A stretch of DNA of 49,226 nucleotides, taken from a virus. Where the stretch lies: positions 1-49,226 of the IMG/VR virus record IMGVR_UViG_3300042451_001219. One strand, given 5' to 3'. The notes beneath the pieces are model-generated. The model made no database searches. It was not told where the DNA came from and worked only from the letters and a program-made list of their open reading frames with translations. A program made the translations under genes and the position numbers. Shown here one piece after another: positions 2,237 to 34,148 of this stretch (position 1 is its first letter; the number at the start of each line of letters is the position of its first letter).

Positions 2237-2836
2237 TTATTCTGCTTTCAACATGTTGATATATCCAATGACAGCCGTTGCTGCATCTGACATGTCATAA
2301 CATTCCTTTTTTAGTTGACCTGTTTTACCGTATAACCATTTTACCTCAGGGCAGACAGCGTTTACGTGTTCCCAGATAACGTGTTTTTTGTCAATATCTT
2401 TGGGATAACCTCCGAATAAAACATTTTTACCTTTGTCGTTTGGGTTGACTAAATCAGGAAAAGCGAATTTCCTAGCATTATATGTTGATATGAATGTTGG
2501 GACAAGGCCTAAAACATCGTAAACCGCCTTACAGATCATTGTATTGTATCGTAATAATGTACCAACAGTATAAATGTTGTTTGAATTTAACAGTGGCTCT
2601 TCGATTACAACCTTTAAAATACCTAAATCTCTATATTTTTCTAATTGTGCTTTAAAAGCATCTGCTTTTTTAATAAGTTCTTCTAACTTATCTTCTGGCT
2701 GTGGTTTGATTTTAGGTGAGAAATGTGTTAATTCTAATAATTTCTTACCAGTTAGGTCAAATAATGCCCAACCAATAGTTTTAGTAGAAATGTCTAGACC
2801 TAAAATCTTAGATTTGTTTTTTAATTTTGTCTCCAT
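2237..2836 (-). CDS. ruvC: RuvC-like Holliday-junction resolvase
   Basis: The 199-aa product has an RNase-H-like fold signature of RuvC: ILGLDISTKTIGWAL at the N-terminus (catalytic Asp15), VVIEEPL at about 76-81 (Glu79 or Glu80), and a C-terminal DMSDAATAV with acidic residues at 181 and 184. This acidic set binds two Mg ions to cut four-way junctions. In T4 the resolvase is the unrelated gp49; RuvC-type enzymes serve that role in many other phages, resolving recombination branches before DNA packaging. It follows the 703-aa tail gene by 38 bases and is followed by a strong terminator. The leader before ATG 2836 is A/T only, without a Shine-Dalgarno sequence. Confidence 0.82.
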   Translation of the reverse strand: METKLKNKSKILGLDISTKTIGWALFDLTGKKLLELTHFSPKIKPQPEDKLEELIKKADAFKAQLEKYRDLGILKVVIEEPLLNSNNIYTVGTLLRYNTMICKAVYDVLGLVPTFISTYNARKFAFPDLVNPNDKGKNVLFGGYPKDIDKKHVIWEHVNAVCPEVKWLYGKTGQLKKECYDMSDAATAVIGYINMLKAE

Positions 2837-2874: not shown

Positions 2875-4986
2875 TTAAAAATCAATTTTAACTGCAAAAA
2901 CTTGAGTACCTGATCTAAGAACCGGTTTAGCCGCTTTTGACATGGCTAAAACATATTTGTTTTCATCCAATAAAGCAACTTCAGTTATTCTTTTTGGTGA
3001 CCCGGTGATAAACGTCGGATTTTGAGTTTCGGTAAATTGAGTGCTTGGTAAGTTAACCATAAAAGTCATTACCTCAAGATCTGTTGCTCTTGTTAACTTA
3101 ATACTACCTGCAAATGGTTGACTATCACCGAATTGTGGTAATGTTGATCCGCTAACTGTTAAATCTGGTTGATTGCCAATTAAAAAATCTGTTGTTGATG
3201 TGTTGGTACCGATAGAATACAATGTACCGTCGTCATCAAACATTGTTTTACTTATTACAAATTGTTTATCACACAAATTTGTGGGATTAATCAAATTCCC
3301 AACAGTGTGGTTTGGTATTTGATCTGTAATGTCAATTTTAACCCAACCATCTGTTTCCGGTTGGGTAGTTGTTCCGGACACTATTTGCACTAACGCACTA
3401 AATTTATTTGCTCTAAACCCTATTGTGCTGCCAGATAAACTAGCGTTATTGGTCATGAATGTAAAATCATCAGTTTTAAACTTTAATGAAATGTTACAAC
3501 TTGTTGATCCTGTAACTTTACTGTAGTAGTTACAATGAAGACCACTTAATGCTGTATCACCAGTATATTCTAGAACATATGTTATATATGCCGTTTCACC
3601 TGTTATAATAATTGGGTCGTCCCCTATAGCACATGGTAAGTCAACTGGCACTGAACTAACTCTTGGTGCTGGTAATGTATATCTTCTATTTGCTTTATAT
3701 TCTAATGCAGCAATAATTTCTTGATCATCAAACACTACGATTTTCTTACCTGTGAATACTTTACCAACTTTATTACCTTGTTCATCTAACAAATATCTAA
3801 ACACCACGTTATTTGTGTTAGGTTTATCGTTTTTAGATGATGTGACATAATAATTTGTGTCACCCATATAGAACACGGCACCTATTGTTGTTCCAGTATT
3901 CCTATGATACATTAAGAATGGAATGTAAACTTCAAAACTTTCAATATCCTCAATATCTTCACCTGCTATATAATCATCATATTTAAAAAACCTCTCAGGA
4001 TCGTTAATGGAATCACCTAATTCGGAAAAATGAATAATTGCTATTACTTTTGTTTCCTCTGGAGTTAATTCAATTTCTTCACCAAATGAGTTTAAATAAC
4101 TTGTTGGATAACTTATTGTTCCGCCTGTGAAATTTGTAAATCTTTGTCCAGAACTTGATGTATATCCAAGATATTCTTTTGTTGATGCGTATTGTGATCC
4201 TGTATATCCTGTTAGTGTTTCATTTAAATCGTCTAAACCTGCTGGTTTTTCTGTCCAAACAAATTCCATTCTCCACGGATCATGGGCATCTGCTGGATCT
4301 ACTTGTTTTGGTGAACAAACTGGAGCAACTATCGATTCCACACCATATTCAACACCGCAGTTATGGCATATTACTTGTGCATAACCAGAAAGTGTTGTGA
4401 AATTTGGCATAACTCTATCTAAAGTTATTTCGTTGCCATCTATTGAAATAATTTTATAAACTAAACTAGTTGAGTTTTCTGTTAATGTTGGTATATCGTT
4501 AACGGTTCTATTATTAAAAAGAACAGTAATATATTCACAGTCATTATATGTTTCGCCAGTTAAAACAGTTAAAACATTTGTTCCGTCGACTCTCGATAAA
4601 TTAATTTCTTGTACTTCACAATTTATTGTTGTACCGGTACACGCTTCTGAATCATATTCATGATAATCAGAAACAAATCCCGCTGGACCCATTACATTCT
4701 TAATTGTTTCAAGAGTGTTTTGTCTAACAGGGTTGCCATAGGTTAATGATTCTGTAGGTGTTAATTTATATGGATATTTAACTTGTGCATCTTTATCAAA
4801 TGGAGCCAAAACTTTTTGGTGGGGTTTTGTTCCTTGTCCTGTGAAACCTGTAAAATTATAATCAAATTCAGAATCCCCTACTTGAAAATAACTTATAACA
4901 AAGTTACCTTCAGCAATTGACTTTCTACCTTTTTGGGTTAATCTTGCTGTTAAAAATTCTGAATTATTGCTGTTTAAGAAACTCAT
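2875..4986 (-). CDS. Large tail/fibre-associated structural protein (703 aa), family unknown
   Basis: No enzyme motif is visible. The N-terminus (residues 1-45, including LTARLTQKGRKSIAEG) looks like a short docking segment of the kind that begins many phage structural proteins. The body is rich in Thr, Gly, Asn and Tyr with repeated FTG/YTG/TGY turns, typical of beta-rich virion proteins. The C-terminal 50 residues (ITEVALLDENKYVLAMSK) resemble the start of tail-collar/fibre domains in which a conserved strand reports on the object being built. It is the last gene of the tail block and follows the modular fibre genes, so a role in the tail tip or fibres is inferred. No Thr-Pro stalk is present. 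A TATAAATA/TATTTATA box sits five bases ahead of the ATG. Confidence 0.6.
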   Translation of the reverse strand: MSFLNSNNSEFLTARLTQKGRKSIAEGNFVISYFQVGDSEFDYNFTGFTGQGTKPHQKVLAPFDKDAQVKYPYKLTPTESLTYGNPVRQNTLETIKNVMGPAGFVSDYHEYDSEACTGTTINCEVQEINLSRVDGTNVLTVLTGETYNDCEYITVLFNNRTVNDIPTLTENSTSLVYKIISIDGNEITLDRVMPNFTTLSGYAQVICHNCGVEYGVESIVAPVCSPKQVDPADAHDPWRMEFVWTEKPAGLDDLNETLTGYTGSQYASTKEYLGYTSSSGQRFTNFTGGTISYPTSYLNSFGEEIELTPEETKVIAIIHFSELGDSINDPERFFKYDDYIAGEDIEDIESFEVYIPFLMYHRNTGTTIGAVFYMGDTNYYVTSSKNDKPNTNNVVFRYLLDEQGNKVGKVFTGKKIVVFDDQEIIAALEYKANRRYTLPAPRVSSVPVDLPCAIGDDPIIITGETAYITYVLEYTGDTALSGLHCNYYSKVTGSTSCNISLKFKTDDFTFMTNNASLSGSTIGFRANKFSALVQIVSGTTTQPETDGWVKIDITDQIPNHTVGNLINPTNLCDKQFVISKTMFDDDGTLYSIGTNTSTTDFLIGNQPDLTVSGSTLPQFGDSQPFAGSIKLTRATDLEVMTFMVNLPSTQFTETQNPTFITGSPKRITEVALLDENKYVLAMSKAAKPVLRSGTQVFAVKIDF

Positions 4987-5015: not shown

Positions 5016-6986
5016 TTACGTTGATCCTGCTATATATGTGTCTACTGTTATTGTTCCAACCTTAATATCTAACGTATCCGCATAAGTTGATCCACCAGTA
5101 CAAATAAGATTATCACCAAATATTAACGTTACCGAAAATGTTACTGTACTTCCTGTTACAGTTAATGATTGCCAACTTCCTCCGTTCACCCTATACTCAA
5201 CAGCACCGTTAGGTGTTACTGGATTATTGCTTGAATCTCTAAATGTCAACTCCATTTGAGTTGAGGTAGATTCCGTGTAATATTGATTCGCAGGGCTTTG
5301 GCATTCACCTCCAGTATTTGTAAATGAGGATGGTGCAAAAACAATATTATTAACATTAACATCTCCTCCTCCGTTATTTCCATTACAATCACATCCTGTA
5401 TCAATTATTGTGAAACCTAAATCATTGTAAACTGCGGAAGTAAATTGGTCTGCTTGTGTTACAAGGAAACATACAATAGTTCCAAGAATATTTACTGAAA
5501 TTGTATTTCCACTTACCACTGTTGGTGCTGTGTCCGACCATATTGTAACACTGCCTGTAGTGTCACATCTTTCACCTGTTATCATATACTTTTGAACTAC
5601 ACCATCACATGCATTACAATTAGTATAACCACTAAATGTTGGTGGGAATGTTGTTGGTCCGGCATCGCTAATTTGATATCCAGTTATTCCTTCAGTTTCA
5701 GGATCTTCTATAACAAACTGTGGACCTAAATTTGCGTTTAATGTCATGCATATACGTTCACCTGTTGCTGTTCCACCGCTATACATTTGTATTCCGTAAG
5801 CATTACCTAAAGTAAATCCACCTAATAATGAATATGCTATTACATTTTCTTCTGTATCACATGTAACACCACTGTAACCCGTTATTGTAAATCCGGTAAA
5901 TGGTGGTGAACAACTACTACATGCGTCCCAACCGATTCCAACAGGTGTCTGTTCGTCTAAATTGACAGTCCACCCTGTAACATACTCTGTTTCAACACTT
6001 ACAACTGCTAAACACTGACCACTAATACTAAAAACAGTTTCTTCAGTAATTTCAGTAGAACTTCTCGCTATTATTGTACTAACATAACTGCCTCCAAATC
6101 CGCAGGCATCTAATGGATTTGATACATAGTATGACGTAACTGCAGGGTTTTGCATTGATAATGTTGCAATGTTTGCTAAAGTATCACAACCTGGTATTTG
6201 GATTGGTGGGCTGAATCCTGTAATAGTAGATGCTGTATAACTATACCTCATGTCCGCACAATCACCCATCGCGTAATAATAGTATGTTGGTTCAATACCT
6301 ACACAATCTTGACATGTACCTGATTGAGTAGCACTGTTTCCGCTGCTATGGTATATTTGTCTATATTTTCCATTATATGATAACCAAAAAGTTCCAGTAC
6401 CAATTGATGTAAAATAACTACTAGTATATGTTGTTGCGGTACAAAAATCTGCGCTATCCATTACAACTTGTATATCGGTACCAGAATTACATGCTAAATT
6501 TCCAAGTGGTTCCGATGCTCCATGATATTTCACTGTGATCGTTACTTCTATTGGCGCTTCCGATGTTGGTGTTGGCGATAAGGTTAATGTTGGCGTAATA
6601 GATTGAGTAATAGTTAATGTTGGTGTTAATGTTGGTGTTAATGTTGGTGTAAGCGTTGGTGTTAATGATGCGGTTGGTGTAATAGTTTGGGTTGGTGTTA
6701 ATGTAAATGTAGGTGTTAATGTAAATGTAGGTGTTAAGGTAGGTGTTGGTGTAGGGTATTCAACTTTAAATATTTGGTCATCGCAACCATTACAAGTTAT
6801 TTTAACATAAATAAATGGTAATCCATCGTCTAACCCTTCAAGGTTGCAGGTATTGCCAGTCACGCCATTGCAAACTGTTAATCCAGTTGCTGAATCGGCG
6901 GTTAATCCGGTATAAACATACTGAGGAAAATTTGATTGGGTATGTCCGGTATCTATTTTAAAATCTATTATTACTCCTTTACTCAT
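5016..6986 (-). CDS. Modular fibre-like protein with Thr-Pro stalk and Cys-rich head (656 aa)
   Basis: Three parts are visible. Residues 1-75 form a small beta-rich domain with Cys pairs (CNGVTGNTC, then CNGC). Residues of about 76-141 are a Thr-Pro stalk built from TPTLTPT/TPTQTIT units. Residues 142-656 form a long Thr/Gly/Ser-rich region with many cysteines, often as CxxC (CQDC, CSSC, CNAC) and CDCNG. The CxxC pairs suggest disulfide staples or metal sites, but no known fold could be named. The layout (docking domain, stalk, large head) and the neighbouring relatives at 7019-10027 point to a host-binding fibre or adhesin. That function is inferred. It lies 32 bases downstream of the 728-aa gene. 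Confidence 0.65.
   Translation of the reverse strand: MSKGVIIDFKIDTGHTQSNFPQYVYTGLTADSATGLTVCNGVTGNTCNLEGLDDGLPFIYVKITCNGCDDQIFKVEYPTPTPTLTPTFTLTPTFTLTPTQTITPTASLTPTLTPTLTPTLTPTLTITQSITPTLTLSPTPTSEAPIEVTITVKYHGASEPLGNLACNSGTDIQVVMDSADFCTATTYTSSYFTSIGTGTFWLSYNGKYRQIYHSSGNSATQSGTCQDCVGIEPTYYYYAMGDCADMRYSYTASTITGFSPPIQIPGCDTLANIATLSMQNPAVTSYYVSNPLDACGFGGSYVSTIIARSSTEITEETVFSISGQCLAVVSVETEYVTGWTVNLDEQTPVGIGWDACSSCSPPFTGFTITGYSGVTCDTEENVIAYSLLGGFTLGNAYGIQMYSGGTATGERICMTLNANLGPQFVIEDPETEGITGYQISDAGPTTFPPTFSGYTNCNACDGVVQKYMITGERCDTTGSVTIWSDTAPTVVSGNTISVNILGTIVCFLVTQADQFTSAVYNDLGFTIIDTGCDCNGNNGGGDVNVNNIVFAPSSFTNTGGECQSPANQYYTESTSTQMELTFRDSSNNPVTPNGAVEYRVNGGSWQSLTVTGSTVTFSVTLIFGDNLICTGGSTYADTLDIKVGTITVDTYIAGST
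6563..6762 (-). repeat. Thr-Pro stalk repeat in the 656-aa protein
   Basis: The DNA encodes about 66 residues of TPTxT units. On the plus strand this shows as degenerate GTTGGTGTTAATGTT-type repeats with a 12-18 base period. Unit lengths are multiples of three, so gain or loss keeps the frame. Confidence 0.85.
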
Positions 6987-6995
6987 TTTATAAAA

Positions 6996-7003
6996 TATAA
7001 ATT
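6996..7003 (-). promoter_or_regulatory. Putative TATTTAT-like box before the 656-aa gene
   Basis: The coding strand reads AATTTATATTTTATAAA before ATG 6986. This is a one-base variant of the box seen before other tail genes, nine bases from the start codon. Confidence 0.3.
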
Positions 7004-7018
7004 TTTGTTTTTCATCAT

Positions 7019-9205
7019 TTAACAGGTTCCATCTGTTGCTTCAATTAAAACATTTTGATCTGTTGCTACAACTGAAGCAGTAAAATTGTAACTATTTGAA
7101 CCAGTTAAAGTATTAATACAAGTAACATTTGAATCACTATCTGTAAATGTTATGCGCTGACCAGCCGTTGAACAACCATAATAAACAATCACATCATAGG
7201 TACCTATTTGTGTTGTTGCTAGATTTACTCCGTTTCCAGTTGTACTTGGCATTGTACCACCAACAACTGTTGACTCCACTCCGTTAACATAAACTCCAGT
7301 TATTTCAATATCCAATGAACCATTGGTTATATCAATATTTGCTTCAGTTATTGGTGTTGGGGTAGGAGTACCAGTAGGTGTTATTGTTTGAGTTGGTGTG
7401 ATAGTTTGGGTCGGAGTTATAGTTTGAGTTGGGGTTAGTGTTAATGTTGGGGTTATAGTTTGAGTTGGGGTTATAGTTTGTGTTGGAGTTGGTCCTGAAC
7501 AAACACTACTTTGTACTAAATCTATTCCAGTTAATGTAAATGGTGTTGGTCTTGCACAAATTGAATTTCCATCAGGAACGTTTTCAGCAAAATGATTTGT
7601 ACCATCACAATCCACCCAATCACCATTCCAATTAACACCCGATGAGTTAGTATAAAAATAACAAATAGTTGTTATGGTTTCAGTTTGAGTTGGGGTTAGT
7701 GTTAATGTTGGTGTTATAGTTTGAGTTGGGGTTATAGTTTGAGTTGGTGTTATAGTTTGAGTTGGGGTTAGTGTTAATGTTGGTGTTATTGTTAATGTTG
7801 GTGTTATAGTTTGAGTTGGTGTTAGTGTTAATGTTGGTGTTATTGTTAATGTTGGTGTTATAGTTTGAGTTGGTGTTAGTGTTAATGTTGGTGTTGGTGT
7901 TAATTCAGGACAATACAATACTTTCCAACAACTATTATCACACTGAGCGTACTCGTACCCACTAGGACATGTGTATCCGGATGATAAATAATTTCCATTA
8001 ACATCTTTAATTACTGGTATTACTTCACCTATAAAATCTGCCGATGTGAATATAATGTTAAGGTCATTTAATTCATCTGCCGATTGTAATTCTATTAAAT
8101 TATTTTGATATATCTCACAACCAAATCCTGCAGGATTAGTTTCGTTACCAATTAAATTATACCCATATAACCCAATAATATGATCACCAGGATTTAATGT
8201 AATTGGGTAAACATGCCATTCTCTAAATTTTGCGAGTTCATTTAAACCTGAATTTGCATATGTGTCTAATATTGTTAGTCCATCAATTTCTAATCTAAAT
8301 TCATTATCTGCACCAATACCAATATAATATTCACCACCTATTATTCCTGTTAGACAGAAATTAAACCCTATCCAAGTATCCAATGGATAATCAATAGGAT
8401 CTGCAGTATCAATATTTGCCCAAATACCTGTTCTATTTAAAGGACCATTACCTGGATTTGCAAGATTAAAACCCGTTGTGTTTCTCCAAACATTAAAAGT
8501 GTTTAAATGTATTTGTTCGGTTCCAGTTCCGTTTATATTCCAACCAGATTGGTAAACTGTTGTACCACTAGTACTATATTCAAAATATTTTCTCTCATAT
8601 GCAATATATGGGTTTATTGGTGCTGTCGATGATGTAACATCGGTAGATGTACATACACCGTAACCTATTGGTGTCCATGTATAACCGGTCGGACAATCAA
8701 TACAAGGAATAACGTTAGTAGGTGTTAATGTTGGTGTAGGTGTTGGTGTCTCCCCACTTGGTGGAGGTATAATAGGTGTCGCGGTTATTGTAACCGTTGG
8801 GGTTGGCGTAATAGTTGGTGTAGGTGTAATAGTTGGTGTAGGTGTAATAGTTTGGGTTGGTGTAACTGTTGGAGTAGGTGTTGTTGTTAATGCAGGTGTT
8901 GATCCACAATTTAATTTAACCATTCTTACCTGATACCCTCCTTGTTTTTTTTCAGGATCGCCGCAGCACGATAAATCATCTATTGGTGTTGAGTGTCCAT
9001 CACAATGTTCAACAAACACAAATAACGCGTCAGATGGTCCATTGTATTGCATAGCAAAGGTGTACCCAGTTGTAGTATTAATTGTGGCATTAGAAAAAAA
9101 CACAGAATCTGAAAAATACATTGTTGTCCCAGTATAAATTTTATACGTAGCACAAGGTGTTGTACTTCCTGTTATGTTTGATATGGTTATATTATATAAT
9201 GCCAT
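7019..9205 (-). CDS. Modular fibre-like protein with three Thr-Pro stalks and a beta-sandwich module (728 aa)
   Basis: The order of parts is: an N-terminal Ig-like domain of about 100 residues (MALYNITISNITGS); stalk 1 (about 104-165); a module from CPTGYTW to about residue 430 that includes YYIGIGADNE, an FREWHVYPITL strand and an FGCEIYQNNL strand; stalk 2 (about 433-509); a small Cys-containing domain; stalk 3 (about 570-618); and a C-terminal beta domain of about 110 residues. The central module looks like a jelly-roll/PA14-type carbohydrate-binding sandwich and matches a segment of the 2364-aa protein strand for strand. The product is probably a receptor-binding fibre; the sugar-binding role is inferred. 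The stop is 32 bases before the next gene, and the ATG follows the 272-aa gene's stop by three bases. Confidence 0.65.
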   Translation of the reverse strand: MALYNITISNITGSTTPCATYKIYTGTTMYFSDSVFFSNATINTTTGYTFAMQYNGPSDALFVFVEHCDGHSTPIDDLSCCGDPEKKQGGYQVRMVKLNCGSTPALTTTPTPTVTPTQTITPTPTITPTPTITPTPTVTITATPIIPPPSGETPTPTPTLTPTNVIPCIDCPTGYTWTPIGYGVCTSTDVTSSTAPINPYIAYERKYFEYSTSGTTVYQSGWNINGTGTEQIHLNTFNVWRNTTGFNLANPGNGPLNRTGIWANIDTADPIDYPLDTWIGFNFCLTGIIGGEYYIGIGADNEFRLEIDGLTILDTYANSGLNELAKFREWHVYPITLNPGDHIIGLYGYNLIGNETNPAGFGCEIYQNNLIELQSADELNDLNIIFTSADFIGEVIPVIKDVNGNYLSSGYTCPSGYEYAQCDNSCWKVLYCPELTPTPTLTLTPTQTITPTLTITPTLTLTPTQTITPTLTITPTLTLTPTQTITPTQTITPTQTITPTLTLTPTQTETITTICYFYTNSSGVNWNGDWVDCDGTNHFAENVPDGNSICARPTPFTLTGIDLVQSSVCSGPTPTQTITPTQTITPTLTLTPTQTITPTQTITPTQTITPTGTPTPTPITEANIDITNGSLDIEITGVYVNGVESTVVGGTMPSTTGNGVNLATTQIGTYDVIVYYGCSTAGQRITFTDSDSNVTCINTLTGSNSYNFTASVVATDQNVLIEATDGTC
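7353..7493 (-). repeat. Thr-Pro stalk 3 of the 728-aa protein
   Basis: Near-perfect 18-base units encode TPTQTI. On the plus strand they read GTTGGGGTTATAGTTTGA-like with a few silent changes. Confidence 0.85.
7677..7905 (-). repeat. Thr-Pro stalk 2 of the 728-aa protein, with 54-bp tandem duplication
   Basis: Within the 18-base periodic array, the 54-base block at 7761-7814 is repeated at 7815-7868 with a single difference (GGGG versus GGTG near the start). The first half of a third copy follows. Such near-identity, against a background of silent drift, marks a recent in-frame duplication. Confidence 0.85.
8715..8893 (-). repeat. Thr-Pro stalk 1 of the 728-aa protein
   Basis: [15 protein letters not shown]-like units are interrupted by an IIPPPSGE segment. 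The repeats are open in a second frame (giving N/T/Y-rich peptide), which is only a shadow of the codon pattern. Confidence 0.8.
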
Positions 9206-9208
9206 TTA

Positions 9209-10027
9209 TTATGGGTAATTTACATCTAATGTAACATTTAACGTTATTACACCCGTTAAATTTATTGTTGGGGTTAGGGTAAATGAAGAAACCAAAGTAG
9301 CAAATTGTGACGCTGTTGCGGATCTATTTATGCCACTTCCGGTAGGCCCGTTAGCCGTAACGCTAACGGTATATGTTCTAGATATTTCTGCGTTAATAAT
9401 TGCTATCGATATTGTTTGGGCTTCCGTTGTACCCGTTAATATATCAAGCATTAGACCTTCAGGAGTAATTGGCGTTAGGTAATCCAATAAACCAGGTATT
9501 AATACCTCATTAATTGTTCCAGTAGTTCCATTAATTGAATTAGTAACATTAATAGCCAACATTAATGGTGTACTTGTTGGTGTAGGTGTTGGTGGCGCAC
9601 TAGTTTCGGTTGGTGTAGGTGTTGGCGTAGGTGTTGGTTGAACTACAGCCGTACTAGTTACTGTTGGGGTTGGTGTTACGGTAAGTGTCGGTGTTAGTGT
9701 TTCAGTTGGGGTAACAGTAAGTGTTGGTGTGATTGTCGGTGTTGGTGTTGTTACACATTGTGCTGACAGATCAAAGTCGATCGTGTCATAACAAGGAAAC
9801 GCTTTACTATCGTGTATATATATGTTTTCAATAATATATCTATTCGTAACGGAATCTGTTAATTTTATGAAATACTGTGTATCAAATTCAAAAGAATGAG
9901 CAATAATAACCGTTGGTGTCGATCCAGAATAACTTACATTCGTAAACGTTCCATAGGGTGACGTTGAGTACCCTAAAGTGAACGGATTCGGACAAGTTAT
10001 GTTAGTTAATCTAAGCGATATAGCCAT
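9209..10027 (-). CDS. Small modular fibre-like protein with Thr-Pro stalk (272 aa)
   Basis: Residues 1-91 form an Ig/FnIII-like beta domain (MAISLRLTNITCPNPF, YFIKLTDSVTNRYI) that resembles the N-terminal domain of the neighbouring 728-aa protein in length, in strand pattern and in ending with a Cys just before the stalk. Residues of about 92-154 are a Thr-Pro stalk. Residues 155-272 are a compact C-terminal beta domain without enzyme motifs. It is the shortest of the stalk proteins and shows the basic plan docking domain, stalk, tip. It is the first gene of the run of three small fibre genes and is followed three bases later by the 728-aa gene. A TATTTAT box lies six bases before the ATG. 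Function as a fibre or fibre subunit is inferred. Confidence 0.6.
   Translation of the reverse strand: MAISLRLTNITCPNPFTLGYSTSPYGTFTNVSYSGSTPTVIIAHSFEFDTQYFIKLTDSVTNRYIIENIYIHDSKAFPCYDTIDFDLSAQCVTTPTPTITPTLTVTPTETLTPTLTVTPTPTVTSTAVVQPTPTPTPTPTETSAPPTPTPTSTPLMLAINVTNSINGTTGTINEVLIPGLLDYLTPITPEGLMLDILTGTTEAQTISIAIINAEISRTYTVSVTANGPTGSGINRSATASQFATLVSSFTLTPTINLTGVITLNVTLDVNYP
9566..9751 (-). repeat. Thr-Pro stalk repeat in the 272-aa protein
   Basis: The DNA encodes about 62 residues of [15 protein letters not shown]-type units with an alternating PTPTPTPT part. It has the same codon pattern as the stalks in the three neighbouring genes. Confidence 0.85.
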
Positions 10028-10033
10028 ATTAAC

Positions 10034-10040
10034 ATAAATA
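10034..10040 (-). promoter_or_regulatory. Putative TATTTAT promoter box before the 272-aa gene
   Basis: The coding strand reads CGATATTTATGTTAAT followed by ATG at 10027. The box is six bases from the start codon and lies in the 49-base gap after the giant 2364-aa gene. Confidence 0.4.
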
Positions 10041-10076
10041 TCGAATCTATTTTTTTATATGTAAATAGTAAAAAAA

Positions 10077-13000
10077 TTATGGTGGGGTGCATCCTGAACC
10101 ATATGCTACTGTACCAGGAACATATGATTGGGAACCATAAGACGTTGGGGTTATTGTGTCGATATACGCATTATTAATTATTTCCAAACTTACATATGAA
10201 CCAACGTTACCAGAAACATATGCGGTACCGCTACTTATCACTAAACTGCTTTCAATATGTGTACCGAAATCACCATCAATAACAAAATTTACTGTTATAT
10301 CTGTGGAAACGTTCACAGAACTGTATAATGTCATTGTTACTTGATTGCTTCCTGTAAACTCAGCACAACCGGTAATATTTACTTGAGTTCCTGCAGGATC
10401 ACAAGGTGTACAAGATTGATCTGTTTCATACGCTTCACAACCATATCCACAGTTTTGATAGAAAGGTGTGACTGTAGGTGTAACTGTATATGTAGGTGTT
10501 ATAGTTAATGTCGGAGTTATCGTTTGAGTTGGTGTTAACGTAATAGTTGGAGTAATAGTTTGAGTTGGCGTAATTGATTGGGTTATAGTAACGGTTGGTG
10601 TTGGGGTTATTGTTTGAGTTGGGGTTATTGTTAATGTCGGAGTTATAGTTTGTGTTGGTGTAATAGATTGGGTTATAGTAACGGTTGGTGTTGGGGTTGG
10701 TGTTGTTCCGCAATTAACGTATTCAATTTTTTTACAAACTGGGCTGCTTGGGTTTGATAAATCTAAACTATAGGTTGCTGGACAACTGTAGTTGCTACAG
10801 AATTGTTCTCCGGCGAGTGGTCCTCCAGGTAAGTAATCACCAGTAGTGAACACTTTGGTTACCATTGTATTATTTGTTGCAGAAGTAAGTTGTGATAATG
10901 TGTTATCATAAATTTCAGCAACAAATGAACCAACGCTACTTCTATTCCAGTTTTCTATTTCAATAATATTTGGTCCTGCTTGTAAAACCACAGGATATAT
11001 GTGATAGAATCTGAAGTTATCTACTGGTTGGTTGTCTGGTTGATTAACTAATGTAACAGAATTTAATTTAATTGTAATATCGTTGTCTCCCGCAACACCA
11101 ATGTAATATGTTTTAGTTGTTGCCAATGTAAATGTTGCACAGAAACTAACATAATTTGGATAGGCAAACGATGATGGTCCAGGCCAGTTTACATTACCGG
11201 AAACCCAAACATTATTATTATTCATAACACTAGCCCAATATCCTTCAACAGATGTTGTGCTAGAACCATCAAATGCGTTTGTGAATCCGGAGAACGCCAA
11301 ATTACCGCTTATAGTGAAACCTGAAGCGTTATAATCGTTTACATTGTAAATTTTAACACCGTATTGTCCGTACGATGCGTTATCACCACCATCGCCAACA
11401 TATAAATTAGCAATAGTTGTTGGGCTAGTGGTTAAAACCCTATAACAACTATTACCATCAGATGTTAATGTAAATCCGGCAGGACAATCACAAGTTGGTG
11501 TTATTGTTGGTGTTAATGTATATGTGGGTGTTAGCGTAAATGTTGGTGTAATTGTTTGTGTTGGTGTTATAGTTTGAGTTGGTGTTAATGTTATTGTTTC
11601 AGTAACAGTAGGTGTAATAGTTTGAGTTGGTGTGATTGATTGGGTGATAGTAACAGTAGGTGTAATAGTTTGAGTTGGTGTTATAGTTTGAGTTGGTGTT
11701 ATAGTTTGAGTTGGTGTAATGGTTGGTGTGATTGTATATGTTGGTGTAATAGATTGAGTAATTGTTAACGTTGGTGTGATTGTATATGTAGGTGTTATAG
11801 TTAATGTCGGAGTTATAGTTTGTGTTGGTGTTATAGTTGGGGTAATGCTATATGTTGGAGTAATTGTATATGTTGGTGTAATAGTTAATGTCGGTGTGAT
11901 TGTTGGTGTGATTGTATATGTAGGTGTTAAAGTTAATGTCGGAGTTATCGTTTGAGTTGGTGTAATAGATTGAGTAATAGTAACAGTAGGTGTAACTGTC
12001 GGAGTGATACTATATGTTGGAGTTATAGTATATGTTGGTGTAATTGTAAATGTTGGCGTTAATGTTTCGGTTGGTGTGATTGTTGGTGTAATTGTGTATG
12101 TTGGTGTTAATGTTTCGGTTGGTGTAATAGATTGAGTAATAGTTAACGTTGGTGTTAATGTTGGTGTAAGTGTTGGTGTCTCGGTTGATGTTGGTGTTGA
12201 TGTGATTGTATATGTTGGTGTTAATGTTTCAGTCGGTGTAATGGTTGGGGTTATACTATATGTTGGAGTTATAGTGTATGTTGGAGTTATAGTGTATGTT
12301 GGGGTTAACGTTTCTGTCGGTGTGATTGTTGGTGTGATTGTATATGTAGGTGTAATAGTTTGAGTCGGTGTAATAGATTGTGTAACCGTTAACGTTGGTG
12401 TTAATGTTTCTGTTGGAGTAAATGTAGGTGTTAGTGTTTCAGTTGGTGTTATGGTTAATGTTGGAGTAATAGTTGGTGTAATGCTATACGTCGGTGTAAT
12501 TGTATATGTTGGCGTTATGGTTAATGTTGGGGTAATAGTTGGTGTTATACTATATGTTGGAGTTATAGTGTATGTTGGGGTTATAGATTGAGTAGGTGTA
12601 ATAGTAAGTGTTGGTGTTATAGTAAGTGTCGGTGTTAGTGTTTCAGTTGGGGTAACAGTAAGTGTTGGTGTTATAGATTGTGTTGGAGTAATAGTAAGTG
12701 TCGGTGTTATAGATTGCGTTGGGGTTATTGTAAATGTAGGTGTTAATGTTAGCGTTGGTGTTAATGTTTCGGTTGGTGTAATAGATTGTGTTGGAGTAAT
12801 AGTAAGTGTCGGTGTTATAGATTGGGTAGGTGTAATAGTAAGTGTTGGTGTTATAGATTGGGTAGGTGTAATAGTAAGTGTTGGTGTTATAGATTGAGTA
12901 ACAGTTAACGTTGGCGTTAATGTTTCGGTTGGTGTAATAGATTGGGTAGGTGTAATAGTAAAGGTTGGCGTTATTGTTGGTGTGATAGTTGGCGTCGGTG

Positions 13001-16000
13001 TAGGTGTGGCATTGCTATGGTGTGTACCGCAAGTGACAACTGGCGTGTTGTTACATACACCACCAGAATGTATTCTAGGATTATAATCATTTATACATGG
13101 TCCAAATGAATGATATTGTTCTAAATTAAAATCTAGGTTTTTAAATTTATTTTGCGTAAACGATAATAATAATTGAGAATTAGTATTTCCGTTAAATAAA
13201 ACAACGTCGCCAGATCCATCAAAATTTATATGGTAAAATATACTTCTAGAACAGTAATCTAAATCAACTGTTTCAACTTCGATTGGAAATCCTATTTGAT
13301 TTAAAAGATAATCACCATGTTGTTTAAAATATGACTCATCAACATCGCAACAAGGTTCCATTGGTGGTTCTGGTTTAATAATTAAATTCTCTGGGAATTC
13401 ACTAATAAATTTACCATCTCTGTAAACTCTTAATTCTGTTGTCGGTAAAACTTCAAACTCATTATTGATTAAATGTTTTTTAATTGAACCTAAGCAATCA
13501 ATATTTGTAATTTCAATTAATTTATAATCAAACCCAAAAGAGTAACCACTTATTGGGACATTTCTAAAATCTGTTGTAGGGAATGGACAATCTAAAAATT
13601 CCGCAGACAACAAATGATCACCATTATTTACATTTTCAATTAATGTTTCATTAATTGCTCCAGACGATATTGCGGCTTGAACATCTAACCATGTATTAAC
13701 GTTGATAGTATTTCCAGTGGCTTTTAGCACAAAAGTTCCTTTCTTTATGCCGTAATCAAAGGTTGGTCGATATTGTATTTTTGGCGTAATAGTAAATCCT
13801 GTGTAGTTATCACAATATGTTACACCAGATATTACGGAAACAACATTTCCGGAACCATCTATTGACGAAATTTCAAATAATTGTGTGTGGCTACGACCAG
13901 ATGTTGACAATGGGTATGGGTCATGTTCAATTTTTATATCTAAACCCTCAATTTTTAACTTTTGTTCGCAGTTTGCGGCATCGGTTATGATTAAGTCGAT
14001 CGGGTTATTGTTGATATCCCCATCTTCGTACACATCTTTAATTATAAAAACACATGGATCAGAAATAGATCTTTGAATTTCTATTGGACTTATTCCGTCA
14101 TTGTAATTTTCATCACAATCATAGAAAATGTTCACTCCCCAGATATCATCTTCGTTTCCTGTTGCCCCGCTTATGTTAATATAAACATCACTTTTTAATT
14201 TACAAATTTCTTCTCCTGATTCAAAAACATCACATGGTGCTGTTACGTGTACTTCTAATTCACACGTTGGTGGCGTGTAGATATAATCAGCCAAGAAAAA
14301 GAAGTCAATATAATCTTTTATTGTGCAATCACTGTAACCGTTTTTATAAGAGTAAAATTTAATTTTTTCAATTCCATCAACATCGGTAAAAATTTCATAA
14401 GAAATCATTGGTGTGTATCCGGTGCATGTTGAACCAGATGTTACAGCACTATATGGTTCATATGTTGGAATACAACCTTCAGTATATCCAGTGTATGTTG
14501 TGTTAATCTCATCAACCAAATCGGCTAATGCGTTTTTCCATTGGGTTTTTATTGCTGTTATGTCTGGATTTATCCAATCTTTATATTCACATATTAATGG
14601 TACATATGTTGATGATGTTGTTAGATCAGTACATGTTGCGCCAGGAGTAAATGTGTCAAATAAAGTATCACCAAACAAATCAACAGTTGTTGTTCCGGTA
14701 TATTCAATACCGTCAATATCAATAACTAAAGAATATGTTATTCCACTAAATTTAATTAACCCTCTTAAGTTTTCTTCACCGCCTAGAATGGTTTCTAAAT
14801 CCTCTTCAATTGTTGTTTCAAAATCTGGATATAAATTATCTACGAACTCAGTTGGTTGGCAAGGGAATCTGTATGGGTACTTTGGTCTACCTAAAATATT
14901 ATTTTCAATTAAATTACCACCTAACCATAACGTTGTTGCTGGAATTATCTGATCTAATATGTTTGTCCAATACGGACTCATCACATCAACAAAGTTGTAC
15001 ACATCAATGAAATCATATGATGTAAATCCTGGGTGTGAATAATATTCTCTAAAAATTTCCTCTAATACAATATAATTTTTCTTGTATTTTATTGTATGAG
15101 AATTTTTTATTTGTTCACTTAATAGGTCTTGAGTAAATTGTGCGTATGTAACACCTGTTTGTATTGGTAGTGTTCCAAATGTTAATTCTAAGTTTTGTGA
15201 TTTTTTCCAAATATCATAATCAACGGCTTTTGCTGTTGACACAAATACATTTATATTTTTTCTATTTAATACTAATCTTGCGGTGTCTAAATCATCAACA
15301 ACTTGTCCTTTAACATTATCAATGGCATTTCTTAAATCATAACCATAATCAAGACCAGGAATAGTTCTGTATATGTCATAATAATCTTCACCATATGTGA
15401 ATGATTTTGATTTTGTTACTAATGTTTTTGTTCTCCCACTTGTAATTGAATTTTGAGTATCCAATATATCGTGCGCTCTATGATCTAATGTTTGTTCATA
15501 CCATCCGGCACCCATTTGGAAAAATATGTTATCTTGGTTTGTTGTTGGGGCGGAGGGTAAACCTGTTGCTTCATCAACCGGGAAATCTGTTCTTTCGTTA
15601 AAAGCATCATCACCAACAAGTTCATTAATATCGTATTTAAATGTGTCAGGATTAAATGATAATGTTTTTGTGATTTTACCACCTTGTATAACTTCATTAA
15701 TGTCACTTTCAATTCTACCAGTTGGTAAACTTGATGTAACATTATAAACAAACTCGTCAACTTTAATCATTGGATCTGGTGCGCCGATGAATTTTAAGAA
15801 AAACTCTAAACTACTTCTAGTTCCTTTTGATTTGTATATGTGAGCAAGGTTTACTAAAATTCTTCTATAGAACTCAATTTCTGCGTCAACCAAAGTTTTA
15901 CCTATTGGCACACCTTGGTATGTTTGTCCACCTAAATTATATAATTGTTCTTCTAGTGTTTTTTGATCGAATAAATTAACCGTATTTAGACCTAATGTAT

Positions 16001-17171
16001 TTGCTAGGTTTTTTAAAAAAACATCTGGTAAGTTGTTGATTGTGTCATAACTTACATTACGCATATATGCAATATTGTCAATATATTTTTTTACCCTATC
16101 AAAACTTTGACCATATAGTTGAAAGATTTTGTTCGTCTTCTGATCTTCTGTATCAAATTCAAAAAGTTGTGGTGCGGTTAAGAATCTAACAATTAAATTA
16201 GATTTATAATCATCAATTTCAATTGCCAACGAATTAACAGTATCAATATATGATTCAAAATCAACACCAACTATTTTTATATTCCAACCGTCTTTAGATA
16301 TTGGCCATATAGCATATTCTGTAACAATTTCAGTTTTTCCGCCACCTAAAGTGTCTTTAGGGACCTGAAAACCTGCTTTATATTTTGGATATGTTTCTCT
16401 ATTTAATAGTGTTTGTTCTAAATCATCTAATCCTATATAAAATTCCTCAACAACACCATTATTAGGTCTAACAATGTATGAACCCGTGTATGTTGTTGTA
16501 GTGAATGGTTTACCTGTAACTTTTAATGTTATTTGGTTATTAGCATCCGGTTCACTGTATGAAACAATTTGATATGTTTTGTCATTTACATCTAAAACAT
16601 ATTTTTTATAAGAAGAATAAAATTTTCTTATTTGGTTATCCGTGTCATTTTCTTTATTTACTACGGGAGCAATAAATAAAATATCTAATGGATTATAAAT
16701 AATAGACGTTTGTAGCGTAAAAGTTGTTCTATCTGTTAAAACGTCATATGAAATATTTTCTGCAGAATATATTGAGGATGCGATTGGTGACGTTGGGTCA
16801 ACCATGAAAACCGCTGGGAAATTTTTTATAATTCTACCAGTGGAAATAGCAAATCTTTCTCTTAAAGAACCAAATAAAGATTTACTAGCATCGTTTTTAG
16901 AATCATTAAACTTAATTGGTCTTTTTTCTCCTGTAGATTGAGTTACGGTAGTTGGAGAATCTGTTTCAATTTTTAAATCATCTAAAGTTAAAAAATTAGA
17001 AAAAGGCGCTGTCTTAAATGACTTAGCATCTTTTTGTGGGATCACTTTATCAACGGCAAATACACTATTAGTCAGTTGACTAGTTCCATCGGTAATTTGA
17101 CTTCCGATTAAACTATCTGAAAACGTTTCATTCCCCGATGCCGCCTGACTTGGTACTTTCCTTTTTGCCAT
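10077..17171 (-). CDS. Giant baseplate-fibre fusion (2364 aa): tail-protein-I/gp7-like region plus Thr-Pro stalk and beta-sandwich modules
   Basis: This is the largest gene of the window. Residues of about 300-480 include [20 protein letters not shown] and KFIGAPDP, the KGT-x(n)-L-x-G pattern seen in tail protein I and gp7-type baseplate wedge proteins. The first 900 or so residues are therefore read as baseplate. Residues 900-1388 are Cys/Thr-rich beta domains. Residues 1389-1893 are an uninterrupted Thr-Pro stalk of 505 residues. A beta-sandwich module follows ([37 protein letters not shown]), which is the counterpart of that in the 728-aa protein. Residues of about 2156-2236 form a second stalk, and a C-terminal domain of about 128 residues ends the protein. 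A single chain may thus anchor in the baseplate and extend a fibre. Its ATG overlaps the upstream stop by one base. Confidence 0.7.
10464..10706 (-). repeat. Second Thr-Pro stalk of the 2364-aa protein
   Basis: About 81 codons of TPTQTITPT and ITQSITPT units. The block between about 10560 and 10706 contains two copies of a longer mixed unit ending in a [11 protein letters not shown] peptide. Confidence 0.85.
11493..13007 (-). repeat. Main Thr-Pro stalk (505 codons) of the 2364-aa protein, with exact 36-bp tandem copies
   Basis: The array is built from six-residue (18-base) units of the form ITPTxT, where x is Q, L, E, Y, F or V, with ITQSITPT and ITPTITPT variants. It has no non-repeat break. 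Two perfect 36-base copies lie at 12821-12856 and 12857-12892. Most other units differ by silent changes, so old and recent duplications coexist. Frame is kept whatever the copy number. Confidence 0.92.
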
Positions 17172-25762: not shown

Positions 25763-27595
25763 TTAGTATGTAGTGGAACCCAGAGTTTTAACTCTTATTT
25801 TGATATCTTTATTTGGGAATCTTATTTGAAAGATTTGATTGGCTTTCATATATACAGTCATATCGCTCTGAAGTATCTCCTTTGTCGCGGTGTTTTTGTA
25901 TTGTTGTGCAACTTCAGATGTTGAATATTCACCACCTGTCTTACCAAAAACTCTTACATCTACAACTTGAACTATTCCAGATACATCTGTTATCGCTTTT
26001 TTTAATTCACCAACGAAAAGTGGATCACCCATCTTTCTTTTTTCAACTAAAAAATAGTCGGTAATGGTGCTAACTGAATCTTTTACAATTTCTGATTGGT
26101 TTTGATTCTTGTCCACAATTAAATCAACTTCTAAACCTAAATCAATAACCTCACCACTAACAATATCTAGGTAATCATTAATCATTCTAAATTCTGATAG
26201 ATAATTCAATATATTGGTTCTTAGTGTATTAGAAACTGTATCAATTAAGTTACCGCTCTCGTCGTATGAAAGAAGTTTGATTCTGACTTTATTGTCTTCT
26301 TCCATTACATTAACCTTTGCTGGCGCACCGTAGGTTGATGGCATGTTTTCAATTAATGATTTATAATCGTTTAATGTTACCGCTCTGTTTTGAGCAGAAA
26401 AATTATACGCAATCATGTTTCTTAATTCTTCTATAGTTGGTTGATCTGCGCCGCCAACCGCTGGGGTTATATTTGTAACTTGTAATGATTGTTGAACCTG
26501 GTTATTAACTGTTGATTGTGGTCCAGTTAGAATAAATTCAACATTCTCAACTGTGTTTATAATGCCAATACCTAAATTAGTTGACTTACCACCACCAACT
26601 CTATATTTGACAAAAAGGGTTGTGTTTGACTTAGGTATATTACCTAATGAAAGGTTGTTTAAGTACGTTCCTAAAGTAACTTTTAAATTTCCAGTAACAT
26701 AGTTATCTAAATTATCTAATGGATCAACATTACCTGAACCAAATGTCATTGACAAATATCCTTCGGGTGTATATTCTGAAATAAATTTATTTGAAACTTT
26801 AAGGTATGTTCCAGCACTAAAGTTTTTTCTATCTGAAACTGATGTTGGGTCTTTAATAAAAACTTTATCTTGAACTAATGATTTTACTTCATACCACTTG
26901 TTATCAGAATTTATAAATTCACTAGCATTAGGGTTTGCACCAAATGATGTACCTTCTTTATGGATAACAGAGGTAATACCTAGTATATTTTTTTCTGGTA
27001 AATAAAATTTTAAGAACGGCTTCTGGTCTCTAGTTGAAACAGATCTTCTAAAGATTCTTGTAACTCCGTTAACTACCGCTTCTCTTTTTGTAATTGTATA
27101 TGAAAGAAGTTTATTATTTGCGTCAAAATTTGGTATTTTTAATCTATTTGGTTCTCCTCTATTGTTAAATGGGTTAGAAAAGTCAATATCTTCAATTGTT
27201 TCAAATACTTGCCCACCGCCAGAAACTTGTGCACCCGATCTTAATATACCTTCGTATCTATCATCATCTTTATCACCTCTAACCGGAACATTAATACTGA
27301 AATCACATAACGCTACTGATGGTCTTAAACCAGGAACTCTAATTCCGTATGTTTTAGCAATATGAAATAAAGATTGTCTCTGTTGAGCAAAATCTAACAT
27401 TGTTTCTTGCCATACTCTATCAATATGATAATGTAAGTTATCCGCAACAGCGGCATTCAAATCTAACGATACAGAAAAAATTGAAGCGTCATTAGTATTT
27501 TGAATAATCTCAGGATAATAATCTTTTGTTAGATTAACTAACTCTTCTCTTATTCCTGCAAAGTCCCTGTTGGTGTATGATATTTTTTTACTCAT
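25763..27595 (-). CDS. Baseplate wedge protein, gp6/J-like
   Basis: The 610-aa product has the baseplate J pattern. Its N-terminus, with SYTNRDFAGIREELV and NDASIFSVSLDLNAAVADNL, matches the start of T4 gp6-type wedge proteins. Around residue 385 is GGADQPTIEELRNM, followed by AVTLNDYKSLIENMPSTYG, the most conserved J-family region. A C-terminal domain has GDPLFVGELKKAI. The family forms the ring of wedges around the central hub in contractile tails. It directly follows the gp25-like gene with a one-base gap, as gp25 and gp6 relatives do in many contractile-tail clusters. Confident identification. Confidence 0.88.
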   Translation of the reverse strand: MSKKISYTNRDFAGIREELVNLTKDYYPEIIQNTNDASIFSVSLDLNAAVADNLHYHIDRVWQETMLDFAQQRQSLFHIAKTYGIRVPGLRPSVALCDFSINVPVRGDKDDDRYEGILRSGAQVSGGGQVFETIEDIDFSNPFNNRGEPNRLKIPNFDANNKLLSYTITKREAVVNGVTRIFRRSVSTRDQKPFLKFYLPEKNILGITSVIHKEGTSFGANPNASEFINSDNKWYEVKSLVQDKVFIKDPTSVSDRKNFSAGTYLKVSNKFISEYTPEGYLSMTFGSGNVDPLDNLDNYVTGNLKVTLGTYLNNLSLGNIPKSNTTLFVKYRVGGGKSTNLGIGIINTVENVEFILTGPQSTVNNQVQQSLQVTNITPAVGGADQPTIEELRNMIAYNFSAQNRAVTLNDYKSLIENMPSTYGAPAKVNVMEEDNKVRIKLLSYDESGNLIDTVSNTLRTNILNYLSEFRMINDYLDIVSGEVIDLGLEVDLIVDKNQNQSEIVKDSVSTITDYFLVEKRKMGDPLFVGELKKAITDVSGIVQVVDVRVFGKTGGEYSTSEVAQQYKNTATKEILQSDMTVYMKANQIFQIRFPNKDIKIRVKTLGSTTY

Positions 27596-27596
27596 T

Positions 27597-28049
27597 TTAT
27601 ATATTGATAATTACAAAATCGCTAGTTCCAAATGTCCCATTATTAACTGTATAATCTATTCTAACTTTAGCCGTATATGGTTTAGTTGATGCGCTAGATG
27701 CTCTAAATAATCTTGTGTCCTCGTCTTCGCTAATACTTGTTCCTGTCTCAGGATCTTCTTCAGCATTAACAACCTTTATTGAGTTAATGTCTAACTTAGG
27801 GATATACTTTTTTACTGAGTCCCTAATTTCATCTTCAATGTGTGAAAATGTAACGACGTCATTTTGATCAAAAATATATTCATATAATCTAGTTCCAAAG
27901 TCAGGTAAAAAATATCTAGTACCTTTCTTGGTTAATAATAAATGTATTAGATTGGCCCTAACCTCTTCGTCTTGAGTTCTGGTCATTCTAACATAATCAC
28001 CCATTAAACTATCCCTAAATGGGAAATCAACGCCATATGATGTAGCCAT
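27597..28049 (-). CDS. Baseplate wedge protein, gp25/W-like
   Basis: The 150-aa product fits the gp25-like family in length and motif. A helix ending in LLTKKGTRYFLPDFGTRLY carries the conserved R-x-x-x-P-x-F-G-x-x-L turn, followed by a helical segment (HIEDEIRDSVKKYIPKL) and C-terminal strands with a variable insert. In contractile tails this protein joins the wedges to the sheath. It is the first gene of tail block B, after a terminator and a TATTTAT box that fit a transcription start here. Confidence 0.88.
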   Translation of the reverse strand: MATSYGVDFPFRDSLMGDYVRMTRTQDEEVRANLIHLLLTKKGTRYFLPDFGTRLYEYIFDQNDVVTFSHIEDEIRDSVKKYIPKLDINSIKVVNAEEDPETGTSISEDEDTRLFRASSASTKPYTAKVRIDYTVNNGTFGTSDFVIINI

Positions 28050-33111: not shown

Positions 33112-34086
33112 TTATTCATCATCTGTTACTACTTCTACTCCTGTGTCAGCAACATTAACACCTAGTTTTTCACTAATATAAGAACCTGCGTCTCTTTTGT
33201 ATTCTTCAATTGACTTCTTTTCTTCGCTTTCCGTTTTTGCACCCATAAATCCATGTGCTGTAACCATGATTCTACCATCTTCGTAACCTAAACCATTAAC
33301 GTGGTTTTTCATGATAGAAATTTTAGTTCTAGTTGCAATCTTAACTTTTCTTCCGTCTTTTTGAATTGCTATCTTTGTTGTTCCAGCATTTTTTTCATTA
33401 CCAAAACGGAATACTAATGTTGAGTTTAACCAGATTGCTTCACCACCTTTTGCTTTAATTTTTGGTTGACCGTATGGATTATCTGGTAATTCAACCCAAG
33501 GTTGGTTAACGATAACTAAAGTGTTCGTATATTTTTTATCTGTTCTGCGAGAACCAGAAATTCTTTGGTTTAATCCTTGACCAATTTTGTCTGATAAAAT
33601 TCTAGCATTGTGTTGTGCACCACCCTTACCTTCGTAAGTCATTTTACAAGGCACCGATCCAACTGAATCCCAAAGGAAAAGTAAATCATATGGTAAGTCG
33701 CCTTTTTCTTGCGCATCTAATAATTCATTGATATAATCTGTGATTTGTTCAATGTATTCAAAATCACTATTAAATAAATAAAAATCTTCTGAACGATCAA
33801 ACCCCATTAACTCAGCATGTTCCCAATTCCATTTTTGTTCTGTAATAATAAGAACTGGTAAAATTCCTTTCTTTTGGGCATCAACTGCCGATTTAACTAG
33901 GGCTGTTGTCTTGCCTGTGTCTGAGTGGCCAAGAAGCATATTTAAATGTCCAATAGCCGGACCTGGAATACCACTGGCATCTAAGAATGCATCACCTAAA
34001 TCAAGAAATCTTTCTGGTTTATATTCTGCCTCTTTAGAGAACTTTTTTCTTATTGATTCAAAACTATTTTTTTTAATCGCTGCCAT
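33112..34086 (-). CDS. uvsX: UvsX/RecA-like recombinase
   Basis: The start is set at ATG 34086. A longer frame begins at a TTG (34140), but those 18 codons lie inside a terminator hairpin and its T-run. The 324-aa product has a Walker A GHSDTGKTT, a Walker B-like LLFLWDSVGSVP, the RISGSRRTDKKYTN loop region and an LVIVNQPW segment, in RecA order. It should form filaments on single-stranded DNA and drive strand exchange for recombination-dependent replication, competing with SSB encoded just upstream. The C-terminus is acidic. The leader before the ATG is a run of A residues. Confidence 0.9.
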   Translation of the reverse strand: MAAIKKNSFESIRKKFSKEAEYKPERFLDLGDAFLDASGIPGPAIGHLNMLLGHSDTGKTTALVKSAVDAQKKGILPVLIITEQKWNWEHAELMGFDRSEDFYLFNSDFEYIEQITDYINELLDAQEKGDLPYDLLFLWDSVGSVPCKMTYEGKGGAQHNARILSDKIGQGLNQRISGSRRTDKKYTNTLVIVNQPWVELPDNPYGQPKIKAKGGEAIWLNSTLVFRFGNEKNAGTTKIAIQKDGRKVKIATRTKISIMKNHVNGLGYEDGRIMVTAHGFMGAKTESEEKKSIEEYKRDAGSYISEKLGVNVADTGVEVVTDDE

Positions 34087-34098
34087 ATATTTTTTTTT

Positions 34099-34148
34099 AA
34101 AAAGAGGGTCCCCTGTCTCCCTTTTATGTAAATTTGACAAGGGCCCTC
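34099..34148 (-). terminator. Terminator/attenuator between SSB and UvsX genes
   Basis: A long imperfect stem pairs 34104-34116 (GAGGGTCCCCTGT) with 34137-34148 (ACAAGGGCCCTC). The pairing is five, one bulge, three, one mismatch, three. On the minus strand it is followed by TTTTT. It lies 11 bases after the SSB stop and just ahead of the uvsX ATG, so it probably lets SSB be made in excess over UvsX. Confidence 0.75.

Follow-up and report, generated by a model that had tools for sequence, protein, structure and literature searches.

Architecture and genomic setting of the fibre gene cluster

The window analysed here is a 49,226-base IMG/VR virus record from an uncultured tailed bacterial virus. 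It contains four adjoining fibre ORFs, all on the minus strand (as are all features for which coordinates are given below), which in order of transcription encode polypeptides of 2364, 272, 728 and 656 aa. Each is built from a slot-specific N-terminal head (in the 2364-aa gene, a long body), followed by a Thr-Pro stalk and one or more tip domains. The initial annotation had noted at least seven Thr-Pro arrays in these four adjacent genes, and exactly seven were found.

The 2364-aa fibre/body gene (10077..17171) was resolved, based on its ORF and architecture, into a conserved body, a stalk, tip D3, a second stalk and tip D9. The body (aa 1–1384, family D1, 13020..17171) is common to at least 122 IMG/VR stretches. 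A weak match to TIGR02242 ('phage tail protein domain') was obtained for 4 of 20 D1 body members, and a local comparison revealed similarity of body aa 293–474 to a large ORF that, in LR756508, immediately follows the gp25/gp6 homologues (E 1e-6) and, weaker still, to a large ORF behind gp6 in Microcystis phage Mel-JY01. The D1 body is probably anchored at the tail or baseplate. With the window sequence as query, no homologue of the body was identified in the cultured-phage collection at the thresholds used; searching PDB sequences with a profile of the body gave nothing credible, and the 2364-aa protein had weak EGF-like matches only in Pfam. The main Thr-X/Thr-Pro stalk (517 aa, 11478..13028) leads to tip D3 (255 aa, 10713..11477), which has a distant paralogue in the 728-aa gene and a homologue (69–72%) in another fibre gene of the related locus L026. 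The second stalk (85 aa, 10458..10712) precedes the terminal tip D9 (10077..10457), a family carried on a different head, D2, in L006 and L008.

The 272-aa gene (9209..10027) comprises head D4 (9764–10027), a stalk of 69 aa (9557–9763) and tip D28 (9209–9556); its homologue in L012 terminates within the stalk. In the proximal part of the 728-aa gene (7019..9205), head D15 (8912–9205) is followed by a stalk of 72 aa (8696–8911) and a D3 tip (7916–8695), and the distal part consists of a stalk of 80 aa (7676–7915), D29 (7502–7675), a stalk of 56 aa (7334–7501) and tip D16 (7019–7333). The 656-aa gene (5016..6986) contains head D10 (6768–6986), a stalk of 62 aa (6582–6767) and the tips D6a (6303–6581) and D6b (5016–6302). 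Pfam contained no family for the 272-, 728- and 656-aa proteins, nor for any tip of the window, and the D6b and D3 tips had no homologues among cultured phages at the thresholds used.

Upstream of the fibre cluster are genes encoding gp6/J-like and gp25-like baseplate wedge proteins (25763..28049; PF04865, PF04965, phrog_219, phrog_261). A 703-aa gene that carries no stalk (g703, 2875..4986) follows the last fibre gene in relatives and was used as the backbone yardstick. At the place matching the fibre cluster, Flavobacterium phage immuto has annotated tail fibre and tail spike genes. As in modular adhesins, the N-terminal parts encoded by the four-gene cluster are kept while the distal domains vary, and baseplate/tail genes adjoin it. 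The best-supported reading is that the four genes encode baseplate-attached predicted adhesins.

Sequence composition of the Thr-Pro stalks

The arrays gave Tandem Repeats Finder scores of up to 621, far above chance. They consist of Thr alternating with another residue, with successive Pro residues spaced 6, 4 and 2 residues apart in 95, 28 and 25 of 168 cases, respectively; Gly accounts for 6 of 941 residues. Pro-Pro spacing was even in 161 of the 168 cases in the window and in 4253 of 4490 among 252 distinct arrays of relatives. The repeat unit is therefore the Thr-X pair, 6 bp in length. The 12–18 base units described initially, in multiples of three, correspond to real spacings of 12 and 18 bp (TPTx and TPTxTx), but the true step is the 6-bp Thr-X pair.

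The common codon pattern of the arrays, also part of the initial annotation, is likewise real, but is not evidence for exchange, as the arrays use Thr and Pro codons just as the rest of the genome does. For most pairs of arrays, the longest exact DNA matches were no longer than those in synonymous shuffles, and the codon pattern was rejected as a sign of recent exchange for most arrays. Exact stretches common to stalk DNAs measured 17–50 bp. The longest, a 50-bp block, is located at 12622–12671 in the stalk of the 2364-aa gene and at 9681–9730 in that of the 272-aa gene; none of 400 synonymous shuffles reached 50 bp (largest 32 bp, p about 0.002). Before correction for 21 pairs, a 36-bp exact match shared by the main and second stalks of the 2364-aa gene had a p of 0.005 and two further 35-bp matches between arrays had p values of 0.02–0.03. 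In this lineage, a transfer of stalk DNA between the 2364- and 272-aa genes is reasonably well indicated by the 50-bp block.

Stalk length varies in frame among close relatives

The cluster was compared with more than 100 IMG/VR loci, all of them environmental contigs, probably from short-read assemblies, in which repeats are prone to mis-assembly. Across 14,400 bp, the window and L083 showed no substitutions, and their sole difference was the lack in L083 of 54 bp in the second stalk of the 728-aa gene; this polymorphic unit lies within a 75-bp exact direct repeat (7767..7895). A single contig (L003/L082) differed from the window by six substitutions in 14.9 kb and, in the main stalk, by an exact tandem duplication of 108 bp (12673..12824), with the gap placed at window position 12824. 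The exact repeat at this site is 152 bp long in L003, and of these the window repeats 44 bp. The length of the main stalk also differs in L004 and L012. L002 differed from the window by one substitution in 15.2 kb.

In seven alignments of close relatives, 13 indels were found in 11.7 kb of stalk versus 5 in 64.3 kb outside, a ratio of 14 (binomial p 1e-7, an approximate value owing to partial sequence overlap among the pairs). When L012 was added, the gaps in stalks numbered 50, of which 48 were multiples of 6 bp and all were multiples of 3 bp. The proposal that stalks are length-adjustable with the frame kept is thus borne out by length alleles in otherwise identical contigs and by the divisibility of every gap by three; the frame-switching length changes of a phase-variable contingency locus were not seen among these 50 gaps. 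Stalk variation is not constant or universal across near-identical pairs, as stalks were identical within the groups L026/L027/L028/L073, L059/L060, L049/L050, L005/L012 and L095/L096.

Low-complexity stalks that co-occur in a sample could collapse, expand or be misjoined during assembly, producing false length alleles and false tip swaps. The exact stretches shared by stalk DNAs and the position of the 54-bp change inside an exact repeat would both favour such errors, and a hypervariable Pro-Thr-Asp repeat locus of a Gracilibacterium was mis-assembled at first (PMC6851277). Against this, an exact duplication such as the 108 bp in L003 would, by reasoning, not be expected from a single-copy template. 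Together with the recurrent arrangements described below, this makes assembly artefact an unlikely explanation.

Exchange of tip domains at stalk junctions

Cutting the proteins at their stalks yielded 404 segments, with 46 families of more than one member. The order of heads along the cluster was largely kept across lineages (D1-D2-D4-D10/D7/D32), that of tips was not: depending on the phage, head D4 bears D6, D17, D27, D28, D38 or an unassigned tip. A single origin of all heads was rejected, since only three pairings between heads (D2-D32, D32-D7 and a short D10-D15 match) were suggestive.

The clearest exchange was found between L006 and L008, which share 98.6% nucleotide identity over 14.5 kb and a body that is 99.7% identical at the amino acid level. 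Their tips are unrelated (D21 versus D35, a VWA-bearing domain; 27%), and in the next gene the head is 53% and the tip 95% identical. DNA homology stops inside one stalk (stalk A; 15955 in L006, 15916 in L008) and resumes inside the stalk of the following gene (stalk B; 17273 and 17275), so that the exchanged cassette comprises distal stalk, tip A, intergenic region, head B and proximal stalk. As in metaviromic islands, near-identical cores here flank non-homologous recognition regions. L088 has the L006 arrangement (100% over 9.35 kb) and L101 that of L008 (99.3% over 7.7 kb), with matching junctions; the assembly of each arrangement in two separate records speaks against chance chimeras. In addition, both flanks return to the same genome, and an artefact would need two coordinated false joins.

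Insertions within stalks were also observed. L020 and L068 are 93–94% identical and differ by about 2.6 kb inserted within a stalk of L068. The counterpart of a single gene, D22~D31, is here a pair of genes, D22~D6-like and D11~...~D31; a second record of this insertion was sought and only its own contig was recovered. In L004, which is about 97% identical to the window over most of the 2364-aa gene, the second stalk is interrupted by the 74-aa domain D13, which other phages, a 335-kb contig among them, carry with PT-rich stalks on either side. L026 and L056 differ by an insertion of D3 in a stalk.

Tips are shared laterally among more distant lineages as well. L012 retains the heads of all four window genes (74–90%) and g703 (89%). 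Its homologue of the 656-aa gene carries other tips, the last of which is 53% identical to the final tip of the 728-aa gene of the window. The D6b tip is 75–79% identical in L052 and L095, though g703 there is 46–56% identical, and it is missing from L012 and L006-type relatives. Sharing at this level is independent of any one junction, a further point against assembly errors. The left partner of D6b is head D10 in the window, D4 in L095, L099 and L100, D7 in L074 and a 1257-aa body in L098.

There were 61 tip pairs that shared 45% identity or more and had different left neighbours. In 50 of them homology started within 15 aa of a stalk in both members, in 59 it did so in at least one member, and in 48 it ended within the same distance of a stalk in both members. 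Since the segments had been cut at stalks, alignments could not extend beyond them, and these figures show that whole domains rather than fragments were moved. Joints away from stalks also exist: D6b directly follows D6a in the window, and D3 follows a head with no stalk between them in L008.

Alternatively, the stalks might be purely structural spacers, for example Thr-rich and possibly glycosylated rods, with the differences in architecture stemming from ancient vertical divergence and domain loss. The kept order of heads and the 54 tip-sharing pairs that retain the same left neighbour are compatible with this. However, the tip was more alike than the backbone in 18 of 63 pairs with different left neighbours (by more than 10 points in 11) versus 1 of 54 with the same neighbour, and a 99.7% identical body with unrelated tips, as in L006 and L008, cannot be the product of ancient divergence. 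We consider this explanation very improbable. The initial annotation had proposed stalks as joints for the movement of distal domains, to be checked in related genomes for reassortment with junctions inside stalks. Relatives were indeed found to have acquired, lost, swapped or relocated tips, with homology breaking off at stalks or within them; both invariant stalk length and a fixed domain order are contradicted.

Recombination genes and the origin of the junctions

The window encodes a UvsX-like recombinase (33112..34140; phrog_97, E 1.2e-12), a gp32-like single-strand binding protein (34159..34995; PF08804, E 9.4e-13) and a RuvC-like Holliday junction resolvase (2237..2836; phrog_159, E 4.7e-6), in agreement with the earlier statement that this phage encodes UvsX and other recombination enzymes. 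Of 11 related records, 9 contained a member of the UvsX family, two of these being recognised through weaker matches to another region; the search also matches all cellular controls via RecA and hence indicates family rather than specificity. As to variation by a diversity-generating retroelement, no match to the reverse transcriptase family PF00078 was obtained in the window record and 10 related records, all of which are or may be fragments.

We infer that UvsX-type homologous recombination makes the stalk joints. It would act between similar stalk DNAs, both within a genome and between co-infecting phages, and the two-residue register and low complexity of the stalks would allow nearly any crossover within them to be tolerated. 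Alternatively, stalk length might change by replication slippage and tips be moved by ordinary illegitimate or flanking-homology recombination followed by selection, the stalks being permissive linkers rather than recombination substrates. For most pairs of different window stalks, codon bias accounts for the amount of exact DNA shared, and a duplication inside a stalk can be explained by slippage as readily as by recombination. The 50-bp block common to stalks of two genes and the location of both ends of the L006/L008 cassette in stalks of two adjacent genes argue against mere linkers. The 6-bp register of gaps is predicted by repeat alignment, although for length changes slippage predicts the same. 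We regard slippage with permissive linkers as a serious alternative, but a somewhat doubtful one.

Putative function of the tips and likely hosts

In relatives, tips matched VWA (PF00092, above the cut-off), SprB repeats and cadherin in Pfam, domains otherwise known from cellular adhesins, and these matches argue for adhesion. The tips may recognise host surface structures. AlphaFold modelled the 656-aa protein with a pLDDT of 41.5 and the 728-aa protein with one of 41.8; confidence was thus low, and D6a (about 147–228) and the D3 region were the only usable parts. The D3 fold in this low-confidence model weakly resembled CBM6, PA14 and lectin domains (Foldseek/VIA), a carbohydrate-binding-like similarity that also points to adhesion; a fold identification was rejected, as the best Foldseek E value (9e-4) and best Z (7.8) were under the identifying level.

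Bacteroidota hosts are plausible because of the SprB repeats and the matches of the baseplate genes to Flavobacterium phages. An archaeal host, raised by one fragment in an archaeal MAG contig in a search of cellular genome contigs, was rejected, the fragment probably being a binning contaminant.

Proposed mechanism and relation to known systems

The comparisons support the interpretation first offered for this locus. We consider it likely that the four genes encode baseplate adhesin fibres of a T4-like-replicating myophage lineage, in which stalks change in frame and tips are exchanged at stalk joints by UvsX-type recombination, with the tips binding the host. Each fibre combines a position-specific head or body with a stalk and one or more compact tips. 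The comparisons show Thr-X units being added to and removed from stalks without loss of frame. They also show tips that have been swapped, inserted, lost or transferred from one fibre gene or phage lineage to another, the junctions lying in stalks or at their edges. According to this model, the tips would bind host surface structures, so that shuffling would alter the adsorption range. There is about an even chance that this constitutes a standing system in natural populations, in which stalk crossovers continually give rise to length variants, shift [tip A - head B] cassettes within a pool of adhesive domains common to distantly related phages and create new fibre genes when a cassette enters a stalk.

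Collagen-like (Gly-X-Y) repeats occur in phage tail fibres. Like these, the stalks are repetitive, extended, of variable length and bear distal domains, but they consist of (Thr-X)n with Pro instead of Gly-X-Y. Hypervariable segments of the gp38 adhesins are reportedly separated by glycine-rich motifs. In both gp38 and the fibres described here, a modular determinant of host specificity is made up of variable recognition segments interspersed with conserved low-complexity motifs. However, the arrays here are rich in Thr and Pro rather than glycine, the stalks are much longer and spread over four genes, whole domains and even gene boundaries move, and no gp38 family match was found in Pfam. The gp38 adhesins of T-even phages are described as modular with repetitive joints in work (Trojet et al. 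2011) cited in PMC7230728. In metaviromic islands and other modules of the flexible phage pan-genome, near-identical cores carry host-recognition genes that differ by recombination (PMC3909814; PMC7468147); the units there are genes or C-terminal regions, whereas the joints here are repetitive in-gene stalks and tips cross between fibre genes. The Gracilibacterium repeat, located in an extracellular protein, resembles the stalks in its Pro-Thr content, its hypervariable composition and length and its surface-type protein, but belongs to a cellular gene with 9-base units, and the part of PMC6851277 available describes no tip exchange.

No direct precedent for Thr-Pro phage stalks was found in the open-access literature searched. 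As far as that literature shows, Thr-Pro stalk joints over several neighbouring fibre genes, cassettes with stalks at both ends and gene splitting by insertion are new. These observations bear on the open question of how phages come to recognise new hosts while keeping their long fibre proteins intact. The design seen in these natural sequences combines slot-specific anchors, a stalk register that would tolerate crossovers and interchangeable putative adhesive tips. It provides defined junctions and length alleles and, for an uncultured but widespread lineage, a guide to where domains begin and end. If the standing recombination system holds true, stalk changes would outpace point mutation in the fibre genes.

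Tip domains and gene integrity in related loci

A 1207-aa tip of family D5, carried on a phage fibre gene of the related locus L020 (17364-20984), combined SprB repeats (E 2.8e-32) with cadherin domains (E 6.8e-18), and tips of this type were found behind three head families (D2, D4 and D22) as well as behind D1, the conserved N-terminal body of the 2364-aa gene. Tip D35 (L008:15953-16714) contained a VWA domain (PF00092). Tip D14 (L026:17377-18036), without any Pfam match, showed, on inspection by eye, a DxSGSM motif similar to that of D35.

The L012 homologue of the 272-aa gene (18680-19057; 125 aa) ended within its own stalk, a fibre lacking its tip and possibly a decayed or a receiver gene. 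Compared with near-identical L034, the distal part of the body gene in L025 (9462-10310) was out of frame through a 91-bp gap, indicating either an assembly error or a broken gene. A body gene fragment (L108:1-348) was located on contig JAPLYA010000030.1 of a Pacearchaeota MAG, probably a phage contig assigned to the wrong bin.

Flanking genes and linker chemistry

The last ~105 residues of the stalk-less 703-aa protein (2875-4986, minus strand) were similar to several fibre-like proteins of Microcystis phage Mel-JY01 and Flavobacterium phage immuto (E 2e-5 to 8e-5) and perhaps form a common anchor or trimerisation domain. Upstream of the cluster, a 370-aa gene (18101-19213) weakly matched the PKD domain PF18911 (E 2.3e-4, under the cut-off).

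D16, one of the tip families of the 728-aa gene, was also present in another phage (L091:4354-6324), preceded there by poly-Thr linkers (TTTTTSTTT) instead of the Thr-Pro of the window, so that linker chemistry is itself variable.
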